From a virus: a DNA stretch of 30,919 bases. The notes beneath the pieces are model-generated. The model ran no database searches, was not told the DNA's origin, and saw nothing but the letters and a program-made list of their open reading frames with translations. The position numbers were made by a program, and so were the translations under genes. The stretch is taken from IMG/VR virus record IMGVR_UViG_3300024335_000032, positions 1 through 30,919 of that record; one strand, 5' to 3'. Every line of letters begins with the position of its first letter. Within the stretch, counting starts at the first letter, position 1. This document shows, in pieces, positions 6,755-30,597 of this stretch.

Positions 6755-6967
6755 TTATGCAAGACAATCCCCAAATGTGTAATCAACGCCGCCGATGTTT
6801 TTAACTTCTAATTCAAATCTATTTCTTAAATCTAACATTCTTTTTGTTGCTAAAAAATCGCAAAACAAAACGTTACCTTTGTAACTTCTTGCCGTATGGT
6901 TTTGAGCCGCGGCAATTATTCTATCTATTTTTTTACTTGTCTTGACTCCGTATTTGTTAATATACAT
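6755..6967 (-). CDS. Small hypothetical protein (70 aa)
   Basis: The frame starts MYINKYGVKTSKKIDRIIAA and ends GGVDYTFGDCLA. It is basic at the N-terminus and contains two cysteines, but no family is recognised. It is the first gene after the 37-bp promoter/leader that also precedes the 30395 gene. In both places that element introduces short unknown genes next to the packaging/head block, which suggests co-regulated accessory functions. Confidence 0.62.
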   Translation of the reverse strand: MYINKYGVKTSKKIDRIIAAAQNHTARSYKGNVLFCDFLATKRMLDLRNRFELEVKNIGGVDYTFGDCLA

Positions 6968-6976
6968 AATTGTTTT

Positions 6977-7013
6977 TTTTAATGGTTTGTTTGTTTCTTA
7001 CAGTACAAATATA
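6977..7013 (-). promoter_or_regulatory. Duplicated 37-bp promoter/leader, copy 1
   Basis: These 37 bases are identical to 30405-30441. On the minus strand the upstream end is TATATTTG (7006-7013), an exact Bacteroidota -7 box TAnnTTTG. It is followed by TACTGTAAG and the leader AAACAAACAAACC leading to the 6967 start codon. A TTG about 18 bases upstream of the box may serve as the -33 element. Identity through both box and leader suggests the whole unit is functional. Confidence 0.7.
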
Positions 7014-7082
7014 AAACTTTTTTTTCAATTACAAGCATAAATTGAAAATTTTTTTTAATTTTTTACGAAAACTTTACGAAAA

Positions 7083-7520
7083 TTATTTTCCGCACAACTC
7101 GCAAACGTCTTTGTCGTCGTCGTTTTCTTTTGGTTGTTCATCGTCAATAGGTAAATCAAACACCGGTAAATCAACCCCCCAATCAATTAGTTGTTTGGCG
7201 TCCCATTCATTCGCCAAAATATCCCAATCCCATTCACCGAACCCCGAATTGTCTTTGATTATGAATTCTCGCTTTTGCGCCTCTGTCAAACCCTTTTGAA
7301 TATATATTGGAACCTCAAACAAACCCGCAGCCATACACGCACGCAAACGCATATTGCCGCCTAGTATTGTCATTGTTTCGTCAACAACAATTGGTCGAAT
7401 TTCCAACATTTGCGGAAACTCTTTTATTGACTTAATTAGTTTTTTGAATTTTGCGTCTTTGATTAAACGCGGGTTGTTCGGCGTTTGTTTTATTTCCTTA
7501 ACGCTGACAATTTTACGCAT
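7083..7520 (-). CDS. ParB/sulfiredoxin-like domain protein, possibly a truncated ParB-methyltransferase
   Basis: The 145-residue protein begins like phage ParB-like nuclease domains: VSVKEIKQTPNNPRLIKD, then LEIRPIVVDETMTILGGNMRLRACMAAG with the GGxxRxxA box, and VPIYIQKGLTEAQKREFIIKDN. In many phages this domain is fused to a DNA N6/N4 methyltransferase through a linker like the WDWDILANEWDAKQLIDWG seen here. This one stops after an acidic stretch and a lone CELC knuckle (CELCGK) with no methylase domain or remnant following. It could act in DNA binding, nicking or regulation; which is unknown. Confidence 0.8.
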   Translation of the reverse strand: MRKIVSVKEIKQTPNNPRLIKDAKFKKLIKSIKEFPQMLEIRPIVVDETMTILGGNMRLRACMAAGLFEVPIYIQKGLTEAQKREFIIKDNSGFGEWDWDILANEWDAKQLIDWGVDLPVFDLPIDDEQPKENDDDKDVCELCGK

Positions 7521-7926: not shown

Positions 7927-9600
7927 TTAAAAAGGTAAATCGTCTGTTATTACTTCAAATTTTTTTGTTTCCAGGTCAATGTCTTTATAAATACCGCCAT
8001 TAGTAAAATCCGGCGCGATATCGAATTCGCCTAATTGTCCGTTTTCTTTTCGCTTAACCTTTTCAACATATATTTTTACAACGTCCGATTTAAACTTTGT
8101 GCGTTCGCCAATACAACGATAAACAATCAAACCGTTATATGCTTTATTGAAAAAATCAGCGGAACCGCTAATGTCATACAATGTCGGTTTTTTATATTTA
8201 CCGTTTTCAGATTCTATTTTGCGCGGGTGAGCCACTAAAAACAAATGTGTGTTTGTCTGTTGACAAAATTGTGTTATTTCTGACAATGCGCGCCCAATAT
8301 ATGAATGGTCCTTTTGCGCTGAATGGTCTAGCATATTCCACGGATCAATCACGCAAACGTTTATACCTTTTTGAAATACTAATTCTTTAAATGCGTTTAA
8401 AATGCCTTTTAACGTTAGGTTTTCTAAATCTATTTTAACCCAAAAGAAATGGTCTTGAATAAAATCTTTTGTTTGATTTAGTTGTTCGTTGTTACAATTA
8501 ACCTCGTTTAATTTATTTGCAATGCGTTTGATATGGCCTTCGTATGGAAATGATTCCGGCGCAAACATAGCGCAACGCATATCGTACCGCGTCGCTAAAT
8601 TGCAGCATATTTGGTCCATTACGTCGGATTTACCCGAATTAGGTATTCCGGTGACAACGGACCATTGGCCTAACTCCATTTTAAAATATGTATCGGCGTT
8701 TGGTAAACCTATTGAATAGTTTTTGACGCCGTTTTCGTTATAGTTTAAAACATTATCCCAAATGTTTTCGATATTCAATACACCTTCCAACGGAAAGTTT
8801 TTAGCCGTTTTTATGACGTTTCGCAGCGCTTCGGCACCTTTTGTTGTTAATATCTCGTTAGCGTCCTTAAAATCGCCAAAATCAACGTATTTGCAACGAT
8901 ACGCACCAAACCGTCGTGACAATTCATTGCGAAGTTCGATTCCCGGATTGTCGTTGTCGGTGCAAAGTATTATTTCTGTTTTGTCTTTGAAGTATTCAAA
9001 ACAATTGTCTAAATATTCCAAACGTTGATTACCTTTTGATGCGCCATTTGGAACGCTGCAAACTGAATAGATGCCCGCTTCATGAAGTGACAACGCGTCG
9101 ATTTCACCTTCAACAATGTAAATTTTTTCCATTGTTTTAATATTGTCTAAACCGTAAAATATTAATTCAGCGCCGGAAACCATTTTAAAATTCTTTTGGC
9201 CGTCACGATATTTGACATTCACTAAATTGTTTTCGCGGTAATAATTAAAATTAATTGCGCGGCGTTTGGCGTTTACTTGTGGAAAATATTCCAATGATTC
9301 GCCTATTTTCCAATGTTGAAGTGTTGGTTCTGTTATGCCTCTATTGGCAAACCATTTTACAACGCGGTCCGTTAAATTAACTTTTATTTTTTGCGGTCGA
9401 ATGTATTCTTTTTTCTTTTCAAATTTTGTTGTCCCCGCCCAACCGCAATTGTGACAATTGAATAAACCCTTATCAATATCAACGGACAAACATTTGTCGC
9501 GTTTGTTTTTTCGCGTTGTGCTGCATTGTGGACATTGTGTTTTGATTTTTCCGGTTGACTTATTGCCGACGTCAATATTAAAATCGTGAAATGTTTTCAT
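7927..9600 (-). CDS. Primase-helicase (zinc finger, Toprim, DnaB/T7 gp4-like)
   Basis: This 557-residue protein should prime and unwind DNA at the phage fork. A CPQC...CHNC zinc site (Cys23, 26, 49, 52) is followed by a Toprim domain with VEGEIDAL (163-170) and CTDNDNPG (213-220). The C-terminal half is a RecA-fold helicase with Walker A GIPNSGKS (318-325), Walker B VCVIDPWN (415-422) and the sensor segment HLFLVAHPRK. The order is that of T7 gp4. The protein ends ITDDLPF, matching the acidic-hydrophobic tip of Bacteroidota SSB proteins and the end of the phage SSB-like protein at 13259. That tail is not a standard part of DnaB helicases and may recruit SSB-binding partners. Confidence 0.93.
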   Translation of the reverse strand: MKTFHDFNIDVGNKSTGKIKTQCPQCSTTRKNKRDKCLSVDIDKGLFNCHNCGWAGTTKFEKKKEYIRPQKIKVNLTDRVVKWFANRGITEPTLQHWKIGESLEYFPQVNAKRRAINFNYYRENNLVNVKYRDGQKNFKMVSGAELIFYGLDNIKTMEKIYIVEGEIDALSLHEAGIYSVCSVPNGASKGNQRLEYLDNCFEYFKDKTEIILCTDNDNPGIELRNELSRRFGAYRCKYVDFGDFKDANEILTTKGAEALRNVIKTAKNFPLEGVLNIENIWDNVLNYNENGVKNYSIGLPNADTYFKMELGQWSVVTGIPNSGKSDVMDQICCNLATRYDMRCAMFAPESFPYEGHIKRIANKLNEVNCNNEQLNQTKDFIQDHFFWVKIDLENLTLKGILNAFKELVFQKGINVCVIDPWNMLDHSAQKDHSYIGRALSEITQFCQQTNTHLFLVAHPRKIESENGKYKKPTLYDISGSADFFNKAYNGLIVYRCIGERTKFKSDVVKIYVEKVKRKENGQLGEFDIAPDFTNGGIYKDIDLETKKFEVITDDLPF

Positions 9601-9639
9601 TATGTTTTTGTTTTCTATTGGCTAAATTAAAAATTTATT

Positions 9640-10173
9640 TTAATATTTTGGTATATAGTAAAATAATTTTTCAATATTTTTTAAATCTGTATTTTTTATT
9701 TCAAACATTGCAGTTCTTGACTTAAATGTCGAACCGTCTTTTCGATATCTTGTTGAACCTTTTTTGACTAATGTTCCAACATTTAATAATTCTTTTTTAG
9801 TTATAAACCCGCAAATCGTTAATTCATTTTTAAGTTTGTTTAATGAACAAAAAATATAAATATCACAATCATATTTTATTTGGTGTTCAACAAAATTATT
9901 TACAAAATAGTCTTTAACGTCAACTTTTCGGCCCATTGTCTTGACGTCAATTTTAAATCCTTTATACTGAAAATCAAAACCACCGTCAAACCCTTTTTTA
10001 AATTCGTGATCAAAACCAAATAAACGTTTGACCATTATTTCGCCCACTAACCCAACAAATTGTTGTTCTTTGTTGCCGTTACCTTCAAAACGATTTCCAA
10101 TGTTATTTTCGTTTAAAAACGTCCACACGTCGTTTTTTAATTGTTTCGGTATGTTATATTTTTTATTTAACAT
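9640..10173 (-). CDS. PD-(D/E)XK-fold nuclease-like protein
   Basis: This 177-residue protein shows the core of the PD-(D/E)XK fold: FVGLVGEIMVKRLFG with Glu45, GFDGGFDFQY with Asp67, then FKIDVKTMG with Asp76-x-Lys78. A helix, acidic residue, D-x-K strand arrangement like this is typical of restriction-like or junction-resolving nucleases. The C-terminal half (STRYRKDGSTFKSRTAMFEI) is basic and may bind DNA. It lies between the initiator (overlap of 11 bases) and the primase-helicase, so a role in DNA processing or degradation of host DNA is plausible. Substrate is unknown. Confidence 0.72.
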   Translation of the reverse strand: MLNKKYNIPKQLKNDVWTFLNENNIGNRFEGNGNKEQQFVGLVGEIMVKRLFGFDHEFKKGFDGGFDFQYKGFKIDVKTMGRKVDVKDYFVNNFVEHQIKYDCDIYIFCSLNKLKNELTICGFITKKELLNVGTLVKKGSTRYRKDGSTFKSRTAMFEIKNTDLKNIEKLFYYIPKY

Positions 10174-11047
10174 TCAAAACGTATTGTTTTAATTCTTGGA
10201 ACTCGTTTGTCATCATTAAACCACGAATTTGGAATTCATGAATATCACCTTTTTTTGTTTTGGCGCCAATTTCTTTTTGACCGCTTGCCGGATTTCGATA
10301 CACAAAAAATTCAATTAGGTTTTTAATTTTAGTAAACCCAACGGGTTTTTGTTTTGCCTTATGCTGAACCATAAAACGGTCAATGTATTTAATTCCGTTT
10401 TTGTCGGTGTTTCTTAATTTAAGAATTGATAAAAAATTGTTTTGCCAAAATTCGTCATTCCTTAATTCTTTTGAAACATTGTAAACCTCGCGCAAATTGT
10501 AGCCGTCCAAACGTTCGATTTTATCCAAACAATCCAACCATTTATTTTTTTGTGCCTCTGTTTTAGGTCTATATTTTAAAGGAAATAATCCTGCAAAATG
10601 CGAAAACGCCTTTGTTGTTTTTTCTGAATATTGGCGCTTTTTCGATTTTGTACTATTATTAATATTTATATTATTATTATTAGTTAGTATATATATATCC
10701 TTTAACTTTTCTTCAATAGGGGTATTGAAGTTTTCTTCAATAGGTATTGAAGTTTTCTTCAATAGGGGTGCAATGTAAATTTGACGTTGTTTTATTTGCT
10801 TTGTTCCACGTTCATAAATCATTTTGATTTTTATAAAACCGTTCTTTTCTAAATTAGAAATCCACTTTGAAATGCTCGTTTTTGAAACGTCATAAAGATT
10901 TGAAAAATATTCATTGGACGCGAAACAAAACCCTTTGTCGTTTGACAATGCGGTCAATTCGCCATACATTAATTTTTCGTTTGCTTTTAAATCTTTACAA
11001 TAGCGCACCGGCGCCGGTATAATTGCGTAGTAGTTTTTGTTTTCCAT
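10163..11047 (-). CDS. Replication initiator-like winged-helix protein with origin embedded in its gene
   Basis: The N-terminal ~90 of 294 residues form a helix-turn-helix of the HTH_36 type found in phage/plasmid initiators: LKANEKLMYGELTALSNDKG, ASNEYFSNLYDVSKTSISKW and LEKNGFIKI. Residues ~93-133 are a low-complexity linker (KKTSIPIEEN, NTPIEEK, then Asn/Ile-rich TNNNNININNST). The C-terminal part resembles replisome-organiser domains (SKELRNDEFWQNNFLSILKL). The linker codons coincide with palindromic repeats and a very AT-rich stretch, the same layout as the origin inside the lambda O gene. Neighbours are nucleases and the primase-helicase. A helicase-loading or origin-binding role is inferred, not shown. 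Confidence 0.78.
   Translation of the reverse strand: MENKNYYAIIPAPVRYCKDLKANEKLMYGELTALSNDKGFCFASNEYFSNLYDVSKTSISKWISNLEKNGFIKIKMIYERGTKQIKQRQIYIAPLLKKTSIPIEENFNTPIEEKLKDIYILTNNNNININNSTKSKKRQYSEKTTKAFSHFAGLFPLKYRPKTEAQKNKWLDCLDKIERLDGYNLREVYNVSKELRNDEFWQNNFLSILKLRNTDKNGIKYIDRFMVQHKAKQKPVGFTKIKNLIEFFVYRNPASGQKEIGAKTKKGDIHEFQIRGLMMTNEFQELKQYVLNVK
10651..10770. other. Predicted phage replication origin
   Basis: Inside the initiator gene, 10651-10698 is almost pure A/T (runs of TATTATTAT and TATATATATAT). It lies next to a block of five alternating 8-bp half-sites at 10711-10764. AT-rich unwinding element plus binding-site array within the initiator gene is the arrangement known for lambda ori in gene O. 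No experimental support can be seen from sequence alone. Confidence 0.6.
10707..10770. repeat. Iteron array of alternating palindromic half-sites
   Basis: Three direct repeats of 24, 22 and 17 bases start at 10707, 10731 and 10753. Within them CTTCAATA occurs at 10711, 10735 and 10757, and its exact reverse complement TATTGAAG at 10723 and 10745, separated by 4, 4, 2 and 4 bases. The first full unit is CTTCAATAGGGGTATTGAAG. The 22-base spacing moves the repeat into another reading frame (CTA TTG AAG in one copy, CT ATT GAA G in the others), so conservation acts on the DNA and not on the peptide. Confidence 0.85.
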
Positions 11048-11052
11048 TCTGT

Positions 11053-11060
11053 CAAAAGTA
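11053..11060 (-). promoter_or_regulatory. Candidate promoter -7 box before the initiator gene (TACTTTTG)
   Basis: The minus strand reads TACTTTTG, matching TAnnTTTG, 5 bases upstream of the initiator ATG at 11047 in the 24-base gap after the preceding gene. It could give a separate, leaderless initiator transcript. No -33 element is obvious because that position is inside the upstream coding region. Confidence 0.35.
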
Positions 11061-11071
11061 AAAATTTATTT

Positions 11072-11317
11072 TTATAAAATCAAATTATATTTTATGTCGT
11101 CACAAAAGGAACGCAGTTCGTCGAATATCTTTTTTAACTGATCCAAAGGAATTTCGCCGTCCTCGTATTTGTACCATAGTAATTCAATTAATAAGTCGAA
11201 TTCAACACGCGTCGATTTACCTACATAGTCATAAGTAACCGCTAAATTTTCCGGCGCTGATTGTGTGAAACGGATTTTTTGGTTTTCCGCGTCAAAGTAA
11301 ATTGTGTGATATTTCAT
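11072..11317 (-). CDS. Small hypothetical protein (81 aa)
   Basis: The frame MKYHTIYFDAENQKIRFTQS... ends KYNLIL. It is acidic, with an N-terminal beta-rich half and a helical C-terminal half (LIELLWYKYEDGEIPLDQLKKIFDEL). It overlaps the VRR-NUC gene end by 4 bases (ATGA-type), indicating coupling. No family is recognised. Confidence 0.65.
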   Translation of the reverse strand: MKYHTIYFDAENQKIRFTQSAPENLAVTYDYVGKSTRVEFDLLIELLWYKYEDGEIPLDQLKKIFDELRSFCDDIKYNLIL

Positions 11318-11847: not shown

Positions 11848-12228
11848 TTATATTCTTTTTAATTTTTTTATTTCGTTTCTTAAAATGTCGTTTTCAATAA
11901 CTAAATTATTGTATTTGTACAACATTGATTCCGGCGTTAATTTTTCCGTTTTAAATTCAGATAAAATTTGAATTTTTAAACTTTGAAACTCTGACTTAAA
12001 AAATTCGTCAAACCTCAACCAATCATTAAAATTTCTTAAACCATAAACAACCGACGCATGATCACGTCCGACGGCTTCACCGATTTTTTTAACTGATTTT
12101 TTACTGACGTGTTTTGCAAGCCAAAAGAATGCACCCCGCGCCATGACAATATCACGTTCGCGGGTGTTTGTTTTTATATCACATTCAAAATGTTTATTTA
12201 CTTTTTTTACTAAATATTCTAATTTCAT
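11848..12228 (-). CDS. DnaA domain IV-like DNA-binding protein
   Basis: Residues ~20-68 of 126 match the C-terminal DnaA-box-binding domain: TNTRERDIVMARGAFFWLAKH, KKIGEAVGRDHASVVYGLRNF, including the GRDHxxV signature at 54-60. The AAA+ ATPase and other DnaA domains are absent. The C-terminus (~70-126) is a helical coiled-coil-like segment (YNNLVIENDILRNEIKKLKRI) that may mediate oligomerisation. It could bind DnaA boxes in the host or phage origin, or act as a repressor of initiation. Stands in the replication operon after the exonuclease. Confidence 0.8.
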   Translation of the reverse strand: MKLEYLVKKVNKHFECDIKTNTRERDIVMARGAFFWLAKHVSKKSVKKIGEAVGRDHASVVYGLRNFNDWLRFDEFFKSEFQSLKIQILSEFKTEKLTPESMLYKYNNLVIENDILRNEIKKLKRI

Positions 12229-14321: not shown

Positions 14322-16913
14322 TTATTCGGTTGTCACAACAAAATTCAATGAAACGTCATCATCATCGTTTGGTATGTGTGAAGTCACTTTAAATTCAGCG
14401 TTTTTAACGTTGTATTTTAATTTGTCAATGATTGCCGGTTGCGCTTCTGAAAGTACGTTCGGCCAATCAAATAAAATTCTATTATTCAGCGCCAACGGTC
14501 GTGTTTGTGTTTCACGAAATGAACCTTCATATTGCGATACAAAATCGCGAAAATCATTCATTATGATTTGCGAACTTATTCGGTGTAAAGATTTATAAAA
14601 ATTAGTCAAACCGGCGCCCGCATTGTAATTGTCGCGCGTACGATACCAATAAAACGTTTCGGGGTTTGGAAAATTCATTCCGGTAACTTGTGGCATAATA
14701 GTGAAGCCGGTCGATGTTGAACCACTACCGCCGGAATTAAAGAAGAATTTTGTTAACTCTGTTCGAACATTATACAAGTAAGGTATTTTTTGACTTTTAA
14801 TATTTGAAACTTCAATTGATGATTGACGACGCGCCACCTCTTTAAAACTTTTGTTTAAATCCCCGACGTCATCGCCGTTTGTGTTAATTATTAAATTTGC
14901 GGGAAATCCGTTTGGCGGTCCGGAATCAAACGTTGCAATGACCGGACGTTTGTTTTCAAACGCCACGTTGTCAAAATAAATTGCTTCATAATCGGTGAAT
15001 GATGTCGGAACATTAGGGTTTAATATAAAAACTTTTAATTTTCCTATTGGTGTTTCGTAATGTGGCGCGCCGATAAAATCTAAACCTTTTAAATCAACTT
15101 TTATGTTTTGCCACGAATTAAACGTTTTAACAACTTTTGTATTTGTTTTTACTGATGTTGACCATGTTTTATTGTCGACGTCATAATAACTATTTGAATA
15201 AGTTGGTGAACCGGCGTCAATTTCAAAATAAATCCTATATCTTAAGTCAACTTGATTTGTGATCACAGTTGATTTTGACGCACTTGCTTCAACAAAATAT
15301 CCTATATTTAATTCAATCCCCATAAAATCTTCAAAATCAGTTAAAAAGGAAAATGACGGCGGAACAGAACCAATTGAGTCTAAAAAACTTTCTTGACTTA
15401 AACCAATGACGGGATAAGAATTTGACAATGTTGTGTCGTTTTGGAAACAAATAACTTCAAACGAACCCGTTGAAACTGAATCAGCAATTCGCATTGTGTT
15501 TTTACCTTGCTTTACTGTTTCGGTTGTTGACAACGCGGCGTTTGTGCCGGTTATGGTCCAACCAAATGTGCCGTATTCAAATCCTGGATTGTTGTTGTAA
15601 TTAGCAAAATTTAATTGCGTCGACGACGCTTCACGTCTATTTTCCGCCAACGGTTGTATAAACTCGCGAACCAAATCATTGTTTATTGGTACTAAATTCT
15701 TTGGCGCTATTTTTAAAACTTGTTGATTGTATAACGCCGTTTGTGACGTACCGGTTGAATTAAAAATCGTTGTTTTTAAAACCTCTCTTTTTTGATTTGT
15801 GATTTGTTTTGTAATACTTTCACGAATTCCCGTTGGAACTGTACCGCTTGATACTGAAGTTAAAATATCATCTTTTACGTTTTGGTCAAAAATATTTGAA
15901 TTTTGTACAATATACCAACGACCAAATGATTGAAAAATTCTACAATGATATAACGTCAATAACAATTCTAATTGCGTTTTGGCGTCATATAAATCGTAAT
16001 TTTTTGTAAATTCAAATTTACCGGCCGGAAATGTGATTGTATTCGGGAAAACAACTTCGCCCAAATCTTCATCACGCGCAGCAATGTCCGTTCTAAAATA
16101 CAACGGCAAATCCAAATTCAAATTTTGTAAAATTGTTGCAATTCTTTTAACGTCTGTTAAACCGGTTGTGCCGGTTGGTGTTCCGCCACTTGCGGTTTGT
16201 GGCGCCGGAACTGATAAATCATTTGTATAAATTGGCGCATCGTATTTTTTAAGCGTTCCCAAACCGTCAAAGGCTTTAAATGAAACCGGAAAAGGAAAAG
16301 ACCTTAATTTTTCCTTAAACCTATCAACAACCAAAAACCCGGTCCAATAGGTTTCAAAATTATAAACGTTTGAATCGGTTATTTCGTTTTGTACACAACT
16401 TAAACTTTCAACAATTCCGCCGTCATCAATTACGCGTTGACGATACGTTGTTGATATTATTTCAAAATTAGAAATTGCATTTGAAATACATTCCGAACTT
16501 TCAACAATTCCGCCGTCAATTTCAACGCGATCAACAAAAGAATCAATTTTACTTTTTGCATAATTAACAACCACCTTATATTCGCGTTCGTCGAATTTAT
16601 AAAAATCGTCATATTGAACGGAATCGGTGACCATAAAATTTAGAGTACAACTCGAACCAATAATCGGCGAATAAAAATCTTCCTTTGCGTTCCACGTTAT
16701 TGTCAACGGATTTCCCGTTCCAATTATAGGTAAAACATCACCCGAATAATTTTTTTTAAGAATTTGAATTTGTTTTCCGTTCCCTAAAACGTCCGAAAAA
16801 CTTAATTGGTATTTGACGCCATAAGATAAATATTCACTTTCTTCTGTAATAAAATTTTCGTTTGCACTTGAAACAATAAAATCGTTATTTTCTGTAATTA
16901 AATATTCAGTCAT
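14322..16913 (-). CDS. Large tail-tip / baseplate-type structural protein
   Basis: This 863-residue protein directly follows the tape measure with a 5-base gap, the usual place for distal tail/tip proteins. No catalytic domain is recognised. The N-terminus is beta-rich (YQLSFSDVLGNGKQIQILKK...). Residues ~130-185 hold two copies of a short motif, RVEIDGGIVESSECISNAI and RQRVIDDGGIVESLSCVQN. The middle has a carbohydrate-binding-module-like stretch around NNNPGFEYGTFGWTITGTNA and YFDNVAFENKRP. The C-terminus (FDWPNVLSEAQPAIIDKLKYN) is also beta-rich. It likely forms the tail tip and may contact host glycans. Confidence 0.72.
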   Translation of the reverse strand: MTEYLITENNDFIVSSANENFITEESEYLSYGVKYQLSFSDVLGNGKQIQILKKNYSGDVLPIIGTGNPLTITWNAKEDFYSPIIGSSCTLNFMVTDSVQYDDFYKFDEREYKVVVNYAKSKIDSFVDRVEIDGGIVESSECISNAISNFEIISTTYRQRVIDDGGIVESLSCVQNEITDSNVYNFETYWTGFLVVDRFKEKLRSFPFPVSFKAFDGLGTLKKYDAPIYTNDLSVPAPQTASGGTPTGTTGLTDVKRIATILQNLNLDLPLYFRTDIAARDEDLGEVVFPNTITFPAGKFEFTKNYDLYDAKTQLELLLTLYHCRIFQSFGRWYIVQNSNIFDQNVKDDILTSVSSGTVPTGIRESITKQITNQKREVLKTTIFNSTGTSQTALYNQQVLKIAPKNLVPINNDLVREFIQPLAENRREASSTQLNFANYNNNPGFEYGTFGWTITGTNAALSTTETVKQGKNTMRIADSVSTGSFEVICFQNDTTLSNSYPVIGLSQESFLDSIGSVPPSFSFLTDFEDFMGIELNIGYFVEASASKSTVITNQVDLRYRIYFEIDAGSPTYSNSYYDVDNKTWSTSVKTNTKVVKTFNSWQNIKVDLKGLDFIGAPHYETPIGKLKVFILNPNVPTSFTDYEAIYFDNVAFENKRPVIATFDSGPPNGFPANLIINTNGDDVGDLNKSFKEVARRQSSIEVSNIKSQKIPYLYNVRTELTKFFFNSGGSGSTSTGFTIMPQVTGMNFPNPETFYWYRTRDNYNAGAGLTNFYKSLHRISSQIIMNDFRDFVSQYEGSFRETQTRPLALNNRILFDWPNVLSEAQPAIIDKLKYNVKNAEFKVTSHIPNDDDDVSLNFVVTTE
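16404..16518. repeat. Two copies of a 22-bp direct repeat in the tail-tip gene
   Basis: The 22 bases at 16404-16425 recur exactly at 16497-16518. They encode the DGGIVES core of the two short protein motifs, so the repeat reflects a duplicated peptide module in the coding region. Confidence 0.85.
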
Positions 16914-30059: not shown

Positions 30060-30395
30060 TTAATATTCTAAAACTCTATTCTCTTTTAATTCATTGAAAT
30101 TTAATCCGCCAAATTTATAGCCTTTTAATGAATAACTATTGTTTTTAAAAGTAAAGACATCGTTTTCGCTAATTATAAATCCGTCCTCGTCCTCAACCTC
30201 GCCGTCAATTAAACTGTTAACAATTAAAGTTTTTCCGTTTCTTTTAATTTCGTGTAAATACTGAATATAACAATCGCCATTTATAGAGTAAGTCAAAGGC
30301 ATTGGATCTAAACTCAATTTAAAGTTTAAACCTTTTAATTCTGATTTTGTTAATTCTTGAACGTAGTTTAAAAAATCTAAATTTGTAATTTTCAT
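30060..30395 (-). CDS. Hypothetical protein at the head of the post-capsid cassette (111 aa)
   Basis: The frame starts MKITNLDFLNYVQELTKSEL and ends NELKENRVLEY. A central beta-rich part (YSINGDCYIQYLHEI, LIDGEVEDEDGFIISENDVF) suggests a compact single domain. No family is recognised. It is the first gene behind the second copy of the 37-bp promoter/leader, so it should be expressed independently of the capsid transcript, which ends at the terminator upstream. Confidence 0.65.
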   Translation of the reverse strand: MKITNLDFLNYVQELTKSELKGLNFKLSLDPMPLTYSINGDCYIQYLHEIKRNGKTLIVNSLIDGEVEDEDGFIISENDVFTFKNNSYSLKGYKFGGLNFNELKENRVLEY

Positions 30396-30404
30396 AATGT
30401 TTAA

Positions 30405-30441
30405 TTTTAATGGTTTGTTTGTTTCTTACAGTACAAATATA
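30405..30441 (-). promoter_or_regulatory. Duplicated 37-bp promoter/leader, copy 2
   Basis: Identical to 6977-7013. The minus strand starts with TATATTTG (30434-30441) and continues with the same leader up to 9 bases before the 30395 ATG. It lies ~100 bases after the capsid terminator in a gene-free, AT-rich stretch. Confidence 0.7.
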
Positions 30442-30597
30442 TAACACATTTTAGAATTAAAAAAATATTTTCAGTTTTTTTTTAAAGTTTTTTTTGTTTT
30501 TTTTTACATTCTTATCTGTTGGACGCCTAAAAATAAAGCATAAAAAAAAGGCCCGGAAATTAATTCCAGGCCCTTAAATTGGTTGGTTAAACCTTTA
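30442..30597. other. Intergenic stretch between capsid gene and post-capsid cassette
   Basis: About 155 bases hold poly-T and AT-rich sequence upstream of promoter copy 2 and the capsid terminator. I see no convincing gene in either strand. Confidence 0.6.
30542..30579 (-). terminator. Strong rho-independent terminator after the capsid gene
   Basis: On the minus strand GGCCTGGAA pairs with TTCCGGGCC (one U-G pair) around TTAAT and runs into eight Ts; outer A-T pairs lengthen the stem. It is the best terminator in the window and should protect capsid mRNA from readthrough. Confidence 0.85.

Follow-up and report, generated by a model that had tools for sequence, protein, structure and literature searches.

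The 30,919-bp stretch of viral DNA analysed here (hereafter, the window) is, by its gene content (terminase, portal, tape measure, endolysin), the genome of a tailed phage. A 206-bp repeat, with 2 mismatches between its copies, occupies the two ends, which is consistent at the sequence level with a circle of 30.7 kb or with redundant ends and supports the 30,713-bp circle assumed in an initial annotation of this DNA. The terminase is closest to those of Bacteroides and Phocaeicola phages, with 38–40% identity. Among genome contigs, the relatives found all come from MAGs, with the labels Rhodobiaceae, Woesearchaeota and Clostridium; the first two labels, carried by the close relatives L241 and L242, are likely binning errors.

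The gene of interest codes for a replication initiator (Table 1), which contains an HTH_36 domain (PF13730, E=6.5e-12; 45.5 bits against a curated cut-off of 25) and matches phrog_19658 (replication initiation protein, E=4e-28) as well as phrog_270 and phrog_428, likewise replication initiation proteins. It thus corresponds to the winged-helix initiator, with a repeat block in its linker codons, that had been read from the sequence in the initial annotation. In the AlphaFold2 model (whole-model pTM = 0.39), the N-terminal domain shows helices at residues 22–33, 45–52 and 56–68 and wing strands at 72–78 and 85–92, and the C-terminal domain is folded; the linker, residues 95–136, has low confidence and is presumably disordered. 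The best PDB matches in a fold search with the model were RepA_N initiators (4pql, 4pt7 and 5kbj) and DnaD-type proteins, all with E-values of 0.003–0.01 and none below 0.001, and a sequence search of solved structures retrieved, at meaningful E-values, only generic winged-helix regulators. Next to the initiator is a gene (9640–10173) without a confident family match, and the primase-helicase gene comes after it.

Table 1. Location of the features in and around the initiator gene
Feature	Position	Strand	Evidence
Replication initiator gene, 294 aa	10163..11047	-	HTH_36, phrog_19658, 61 viral-contig relatives
N-terminal winged-helix DNA-binding domain, residues 1–92	10772..11047	-	HTH_36 at residues 19–72; AlphaFold2
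Recognition helix, residues 56–68, with specificity residues T57, S58 and K61	10844..10882	-	Half-site information; residue-base tables
Iteron I, TATTGAAGAAAACTTCAATA, perfect palindrome, A4 centre	10745..10764	-	Sequence
Iteron II, TATTGAAGAAAACTTCAATA, perfect palindrome, A4 centre	10723..10742	-	Sequence
Iteron III, TATTGAAGAAAAGTTAAAGG, imperfect palindrome adjoining the A/T tract	10699..10718	-	Sequence
A/T-rich tract, candidate DNA unwinding element, encoding an Asn-rich linker	10648..10698	-	A/T run; low synonymous divergence
C-terminal domain, residues 142–293	10169..10624	-	DnaD-like/replisome-organiser similarity: phrog_2514, phrog_4880, phrog_2357
Exchangeable cassette, DNA-binding domain plus iterons	10697..11052	-	Homology lost in L027, L028 and L029
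Primase-helicase	7927..9600	-	phrog_239 DNA primase/helicase, E=5e-88; Toprim_2

The repeat block lies 280–350 bp inside the initiator gene. The five 8-bp half-sites listed for it in the initial annotation, separated by gaps of 4, 4, 2 and 4 bases, are exact in position and spacing (CTTCAATA at 10711–10718, 10735–10742 and 10757–10764; TATTGAAG at 10723–10730 and 10745–10752), and 5 of the 10 copies in the whole 30.9 kb are found here. This is far above chance: when codons were shuffled with the protein fixed and with phage codon usage, neither five half-sites nor four inverted 8-mers appeared in any of 20,000 draws. On the gene strand the block reads CC TATTGAAG AAAA CTTCAATA CC TATTGAAG AAAA CTTCAATA CCCC TATTGAAG AAAA GTTAAAGG, and the A/T tract comes next. 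The unit is therefore not the free half-site but a semi-palindromic iteron of ~20 bp, TATTGAAG-AAAA-CTTCAATA, with an A4 centre and repeated three times directly with periods of 22 and 24; iteron III had been mistaken for a lone half-site because its right arm has decayed. As had been claimed, one copy is read in a different frame, with iteron I encoding LLKKTSI and iterons II and III PIEENFN/PIEEKLK. Allowing up to 3 mismatches, the 20-bp iteron has only two sites in the window and none in 100 shuffles; its core CCTATTGAAGAAAA is present in exactly three copies, all of them in the block, and no further strong iteron copies were found elsewhere in the window. The adjoining A/T stretch, also pointed out before, reaches 92% A/T over 50 bp and includes 29 bp of uninterrupted A/T at 10654, the longest such run in the window.

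Other elements of the window deserve mention. A stand-alone DnaA domain IV protein (11848–12228, minus strand; Bac_DnaA_C, E=3e-12), from which the AAA+ part is absent, is encoded upstream of the initiator, within the same cluster of genes; a search for canonical DnaA boxes (TTATNCACA) found none, and two TTWTNCACA sequences, at 9278 and 2091, are away from the iterons. A protein with a ParB-like nuclease domain (phrog_620, phrog_498) is encoded at 7083–7520, on the minus strand. The only other spot that equals the iteron block in its number of repeated 8-mers is an A/T-rich, mostly intergenic block at 30421–30560, in which a 22-bp unit (GTTTTTTTTTAAAGTCTTATCT) is repeated in tandem (2.1 copies) and palindromes are absent. 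Additionally, the window contains two near-identical pairs of sequences, 11033–11076 with 9604–9645 (84%) and 30381–30452 with 6952–7022 (88%), which lie at gene starts or a short way upstream of them, are present in relatives too, and might possibly be a common expression signal.

Comparisons with relatives indicate that this DNA is itself conserved, as had been proposed from the change of frame. Among 16 near relatives, the window included, same-amino-acid codon pairs differed synonymously in 4.3% of the cases for codons 93–117 (iterons) and 6.9% for codons 118–135 (A/T tract), against 26–30% in most segments of the rest of the gene and 18% in codons 136–165, just after the tract. A search with the 3.1-kb helicase-to-initiator DNA against 50,697 phages retrieved 11 records, from Staphylococcus, Enterococcus and Acinetobacter phages among the 10 listed; these 10 all match the iteron/A-T block, at about query positions 276–391 (initiator-first) and with 75–83% identity. 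The iterons are thus the best-conserved DNA of the 3.1-kb region, because the DNA matches there even though the corresponding initiators are only ~50% identical to that of the window. In other phages and prophages, related initiator genes contain tandem iterons of their own in the corresponding place. When the collection was scanned for the palindrome, allowing any four bases as spacer, 95 stretches were retrieved, and the ones having two copies belong to near relatives of the initiator gene. Codon shuffling with 7-mers on single distant relatives was often not significant, because their iterons are few and diverged, and for this reason our case is built on the window itself, comparative conservation and covariation. 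As for the A/T tract, a AATAATACAAGTATTAATAATAC-like motif occurs directly after the iterons, together with TAA/AAT runs, in L153, L154, L157, L160 and other phages, spanning phages of Gram-positive hosts and of Fusobacterium; it could be a conserved unwinding element.

The DNA-binding domain and the iterons can also be exchanged together. Three relatives (L027, L028 and L029) share 94–96% identity with the window DNA up to 11053, which is six bases ahead of the start codon, and 92–93% from 10696, just past the iterons, with no detectable similarity in between. In its place they contain another HTH_36 domain (PF13730, E=1.4e-8 in L028) and other repeats, made of ACCGnnnCGGT units that are clearest in L040, with four copies. 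As judged from these alignments, domain and iterons are swapped as one block, and the A/T tract and the C-terminal domain are retained. Further domain-iteron types occur in L051/L052 (CCGCATAC), L053/L054 (CCACAAACGGAAAAA) and L059. In all, we noticed four other iteron types, each with a distinct N-terminal domain: ACCGnnnCGGT every 15 bp (L040), CCGCATAC, CCACAAACGGAAAAA and, in L059, GGTGAGAAAAAAACTTC.

Across 79 distinct initiators, most linkers contain tandem sites following the pattern CC/GG-TA-six bases-AAAA-six bases-TA-CC, which allowed us to compare domains with their half-sites. For 53 initiators with TTGAA, TTAAA or TTGAC half-sites, the most informative domain columns were 57, 61 and 58 at every redundancy cut-off, and the pair 57/61 corresponded to a single half-site class in all 53. 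The combination T/K goes with TGAA (16/16), as in the window, whose T57/K61 domain is accompanied by three TATTGAAG iterons of the same class; S/R, E/R and R/R go with TGAC (17); V/K, V/T, I/N, I/T, T/V and T/T with TAAA (17); and R/S, R/T and R/N with TGAA (3). At ~80% identity, computed with the recognition helix excluded, residues 57/61 differ in 64 of 64 pairs of different class and in 2 of 62 pairs of the same class. A 57/61 rule fixed beforehand on these initiators predicted correctly 37 of 45 held-out ones and failed in 8 (20,000 shuffles averaged 18 and never exceeded 28), the held-out set being new loci from two further scans plus three plasmids, mostly relatives of two query proteins, which inflates the score.

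Each residue seems to specify its own base. Among 116 initiators, 25 of the 26 with R61 have C at half-site position 7, versus 1 of 90 without it, and Val/Ile57 coincides with A at position 5 in 38/41 and Thr/Ser/Glu57 with G in 45/58, counts that are inflated by relatedness, many sequences being metagenomic contigs that are phylogenetically linked. Likewise, L269, with V57 and R61, has the half-site TTAAC, matching the expectation for independent contacts. Tree-based independent-pairs analysis of R61/C7 gave 3 supported pairs, all concordant and too few for significance. These comparisons give good support to a link between domain and site, with residues 57 and 61 predicting half-site letters. 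Moreover, relatives that lose the half-sites while keeping the linker peptide did not appear; instead, the left half-site is kept or covaries with the recognition helix.

Taking together the iterons, their conservation at the DNA level, the joint exchange of domain and sites, and the covariation with two recognition-helix residues, all of them computed, we consider it highly probable that the block is a phage replication origin inside the initiator gene, bound by the initiator and melted at the A/T tract. The initiator-bound origin of the initial annotation is hence strongly supported by conservation, cassette exchange and covariation. By analogy with known systems, we infer that the winged-helix domains, probably as dimers, would bind the three tandem iterons (10699–10764), which are about two helical turns apart, filling them on one face of the helix. 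The assembled complex would then open the adjoining A/T-rich tract, the C-terminal domain would recruit the phage primase-helicase, and the site would be used as an origin in vivo. The linker codons would be free to act as DNA sites because the linker they encode is predicted to be disordered. GC skew, which had been suggested as a check of the site, did not switch there and was dropped as an origin marker: the curve is nearly monotonic and, once detrended, has its extremes at 16301 and 25960, and it is uninformative because all major genes are on one strand.

The iterons might instead be an operator only, through which the initiator represses or paces its own transcription, with replication beginning elsewhere. 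Covariation fits this, because it indicates binding by the gene's own domain, which alone does not establish use as an origin. Against it, the block is 280–350 bp into the gene and beside the longest A/T run of the window, synonymous sites of the A/T tract are conserved as well, there are no other strong iteron copies in the window, and the same layout is an origin in lambda and in RepA_N plasmids. We therefore regard a purely regulatory role as improbable.

It is less probable still that the palindromes function as a DNA cruciform or as RNA hairpins, the alternative hairpins contemplated in the initial annotation. The block of the window does fold well as a single strand (-10.8 kcal/mol, z -5.8), but folding is generally weaker in the relatives (z -3.0 in L010, -1.1 in L016 and -4.4 in L024) and most of these have mismatched arms. 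Near relatives mostly show at least one right arm GTTAAA instead of TTGAAG (e.g. L006, L010 and L016), perfect arms in more than one iteron being limited to the closest relatives of the window, whereas the left half-site and the A-tract are constant and track the recognition helix. A direct iteron is thus a better description than a palindrome, and a hairpin function, unlikely with arms that are not conserved across relatives, was rejected. Finally, that the repeat is a side effect of protein-level selection on a repeated linker peptide has the least to commend it and can practically be set aside, since, although iterons II and III both encode PIEE-type peptides and share a frame, iteron I is read in a different one, the linker is predicted to be disordered, synonymous change is lowered about 4- to 6-fold, the codon-shuffle null was never reached, and relatives with a kept peptide and freely varying codons were not seen.

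Returning to the probable origin inside the initiator gene, it is likely, from the sequences compared, that HTH_36 initiators in general carry their own binding site within their gene, which would make the code readable from sequence: Arg61 would specify C/G at position 7, and residue 57 would specify position 5 (G with Thr, Ser or Glu; A with Val or Ile). Phages would accordingly change their type of origin by means of a ~355-bp cassette of domain plus iterons, with the A/T tract and effector domain left in place. What is new here is the recognition code, the in-gene layout of the origin being already known; we met no similar code in the open literature searched, which is no proof of absence. 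With the reader and the sequence that is read in one gene, hundreds of natural domain-site pairs can be aligned, so that initiator specificity, and possibly the origin incompatibility of co-infecting phages, becomes testable from sequence. The block also provides a group of uncultured phages with a probable origin, offers a simple route to origins in unannotated phage genomes, and extends to phages of very different hosts a type of origin known from Gram-positive plasmids and lambda-like phages.

The resemblance to the lambda origin noted in the initial annotation holds for the way the site would work and not for the protein family. In lambdoid phages, the origin sits midway in gene O and is built from imperfect inverted-repeat iterons of ~19 bp that carry A-tracts, together with an A/T tract (PMC7466680), and the window likewise has tandem inverted-repeat iterons with A-tracts and then an A/T tract in the middle of its initiator gene, with three iterons versus the four of lambda. 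Unlike lambda O, the window initiator has an HTH_36 domain: the phage O Pfam family gave no match, HTH_36 being the only one found, and matches to O-like PHROGs were weaker (best E=6e-10). No P-type helicase loader was recognised beside the initiator, and the primase-helicase gene is present instead.

RepA_N initiators (pSK41, pTZ2162) and PLE RepA are similar in their winged helix, their DnaD-like parts and their semi-palindromic repeats converging on poly-A. RepA_N iterons are mostly semi-palindromic direct repeats that converge on a poly-A tract (PMC7145576), and the window shows semi-palindromic direct repeats with an A4 centre inside the initiator gene. In plasmid pSK41, four Rep boxes are located centrally in rep and the linker is dispensable (PMC5703833), so that its origin is also in the middle of the gene, between the N- and C-terminal domains. 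Binding of the host primase DnaG by the C-terminal domain is a trait of RepA_N replicons; the phage encodes a primase-helicase of its own. However, the C-terminal domain and the partner differ, the PLE origin is in a noncoding region, and the RepA_N domain (PF06970) had no match in the window initiator up to an E-value of 0.1.

Among phages, the HTH_36 initiators of Staphylococcus phage 77, Enterococcus phage B1578, Butyrivibrio phage Ceridwen and others share about 44–55% identity in the N-terminal domain. They have tandem iterons at the equivalent place of the linker, followed by an A/T tract with a AATACAAGTATTAATAATAC-like sequence, although their half-sites have other letters (TTGAC, ATGAAC, TCACG) and their C-terminal domain is different (Phg_2220_C in 77 and Ceridwen). 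The closest precedent is the chimeric Rep of pPR9 type from staphylococcal plasmids, with an N-terminal pfam13730 HTH and the same type of cassette swap. In pPR9, a domain-plus-origin segment of ~500 bp has been swapped into the pSK41 backbone, the C-terminal domain remains otherwise >97% identical, and a mini-replicon is functional and compatible with the parent type (PMC5703833). It differs in being a plasmid and in its C-terminal domain, and is compared here by its HTH and by the swap.
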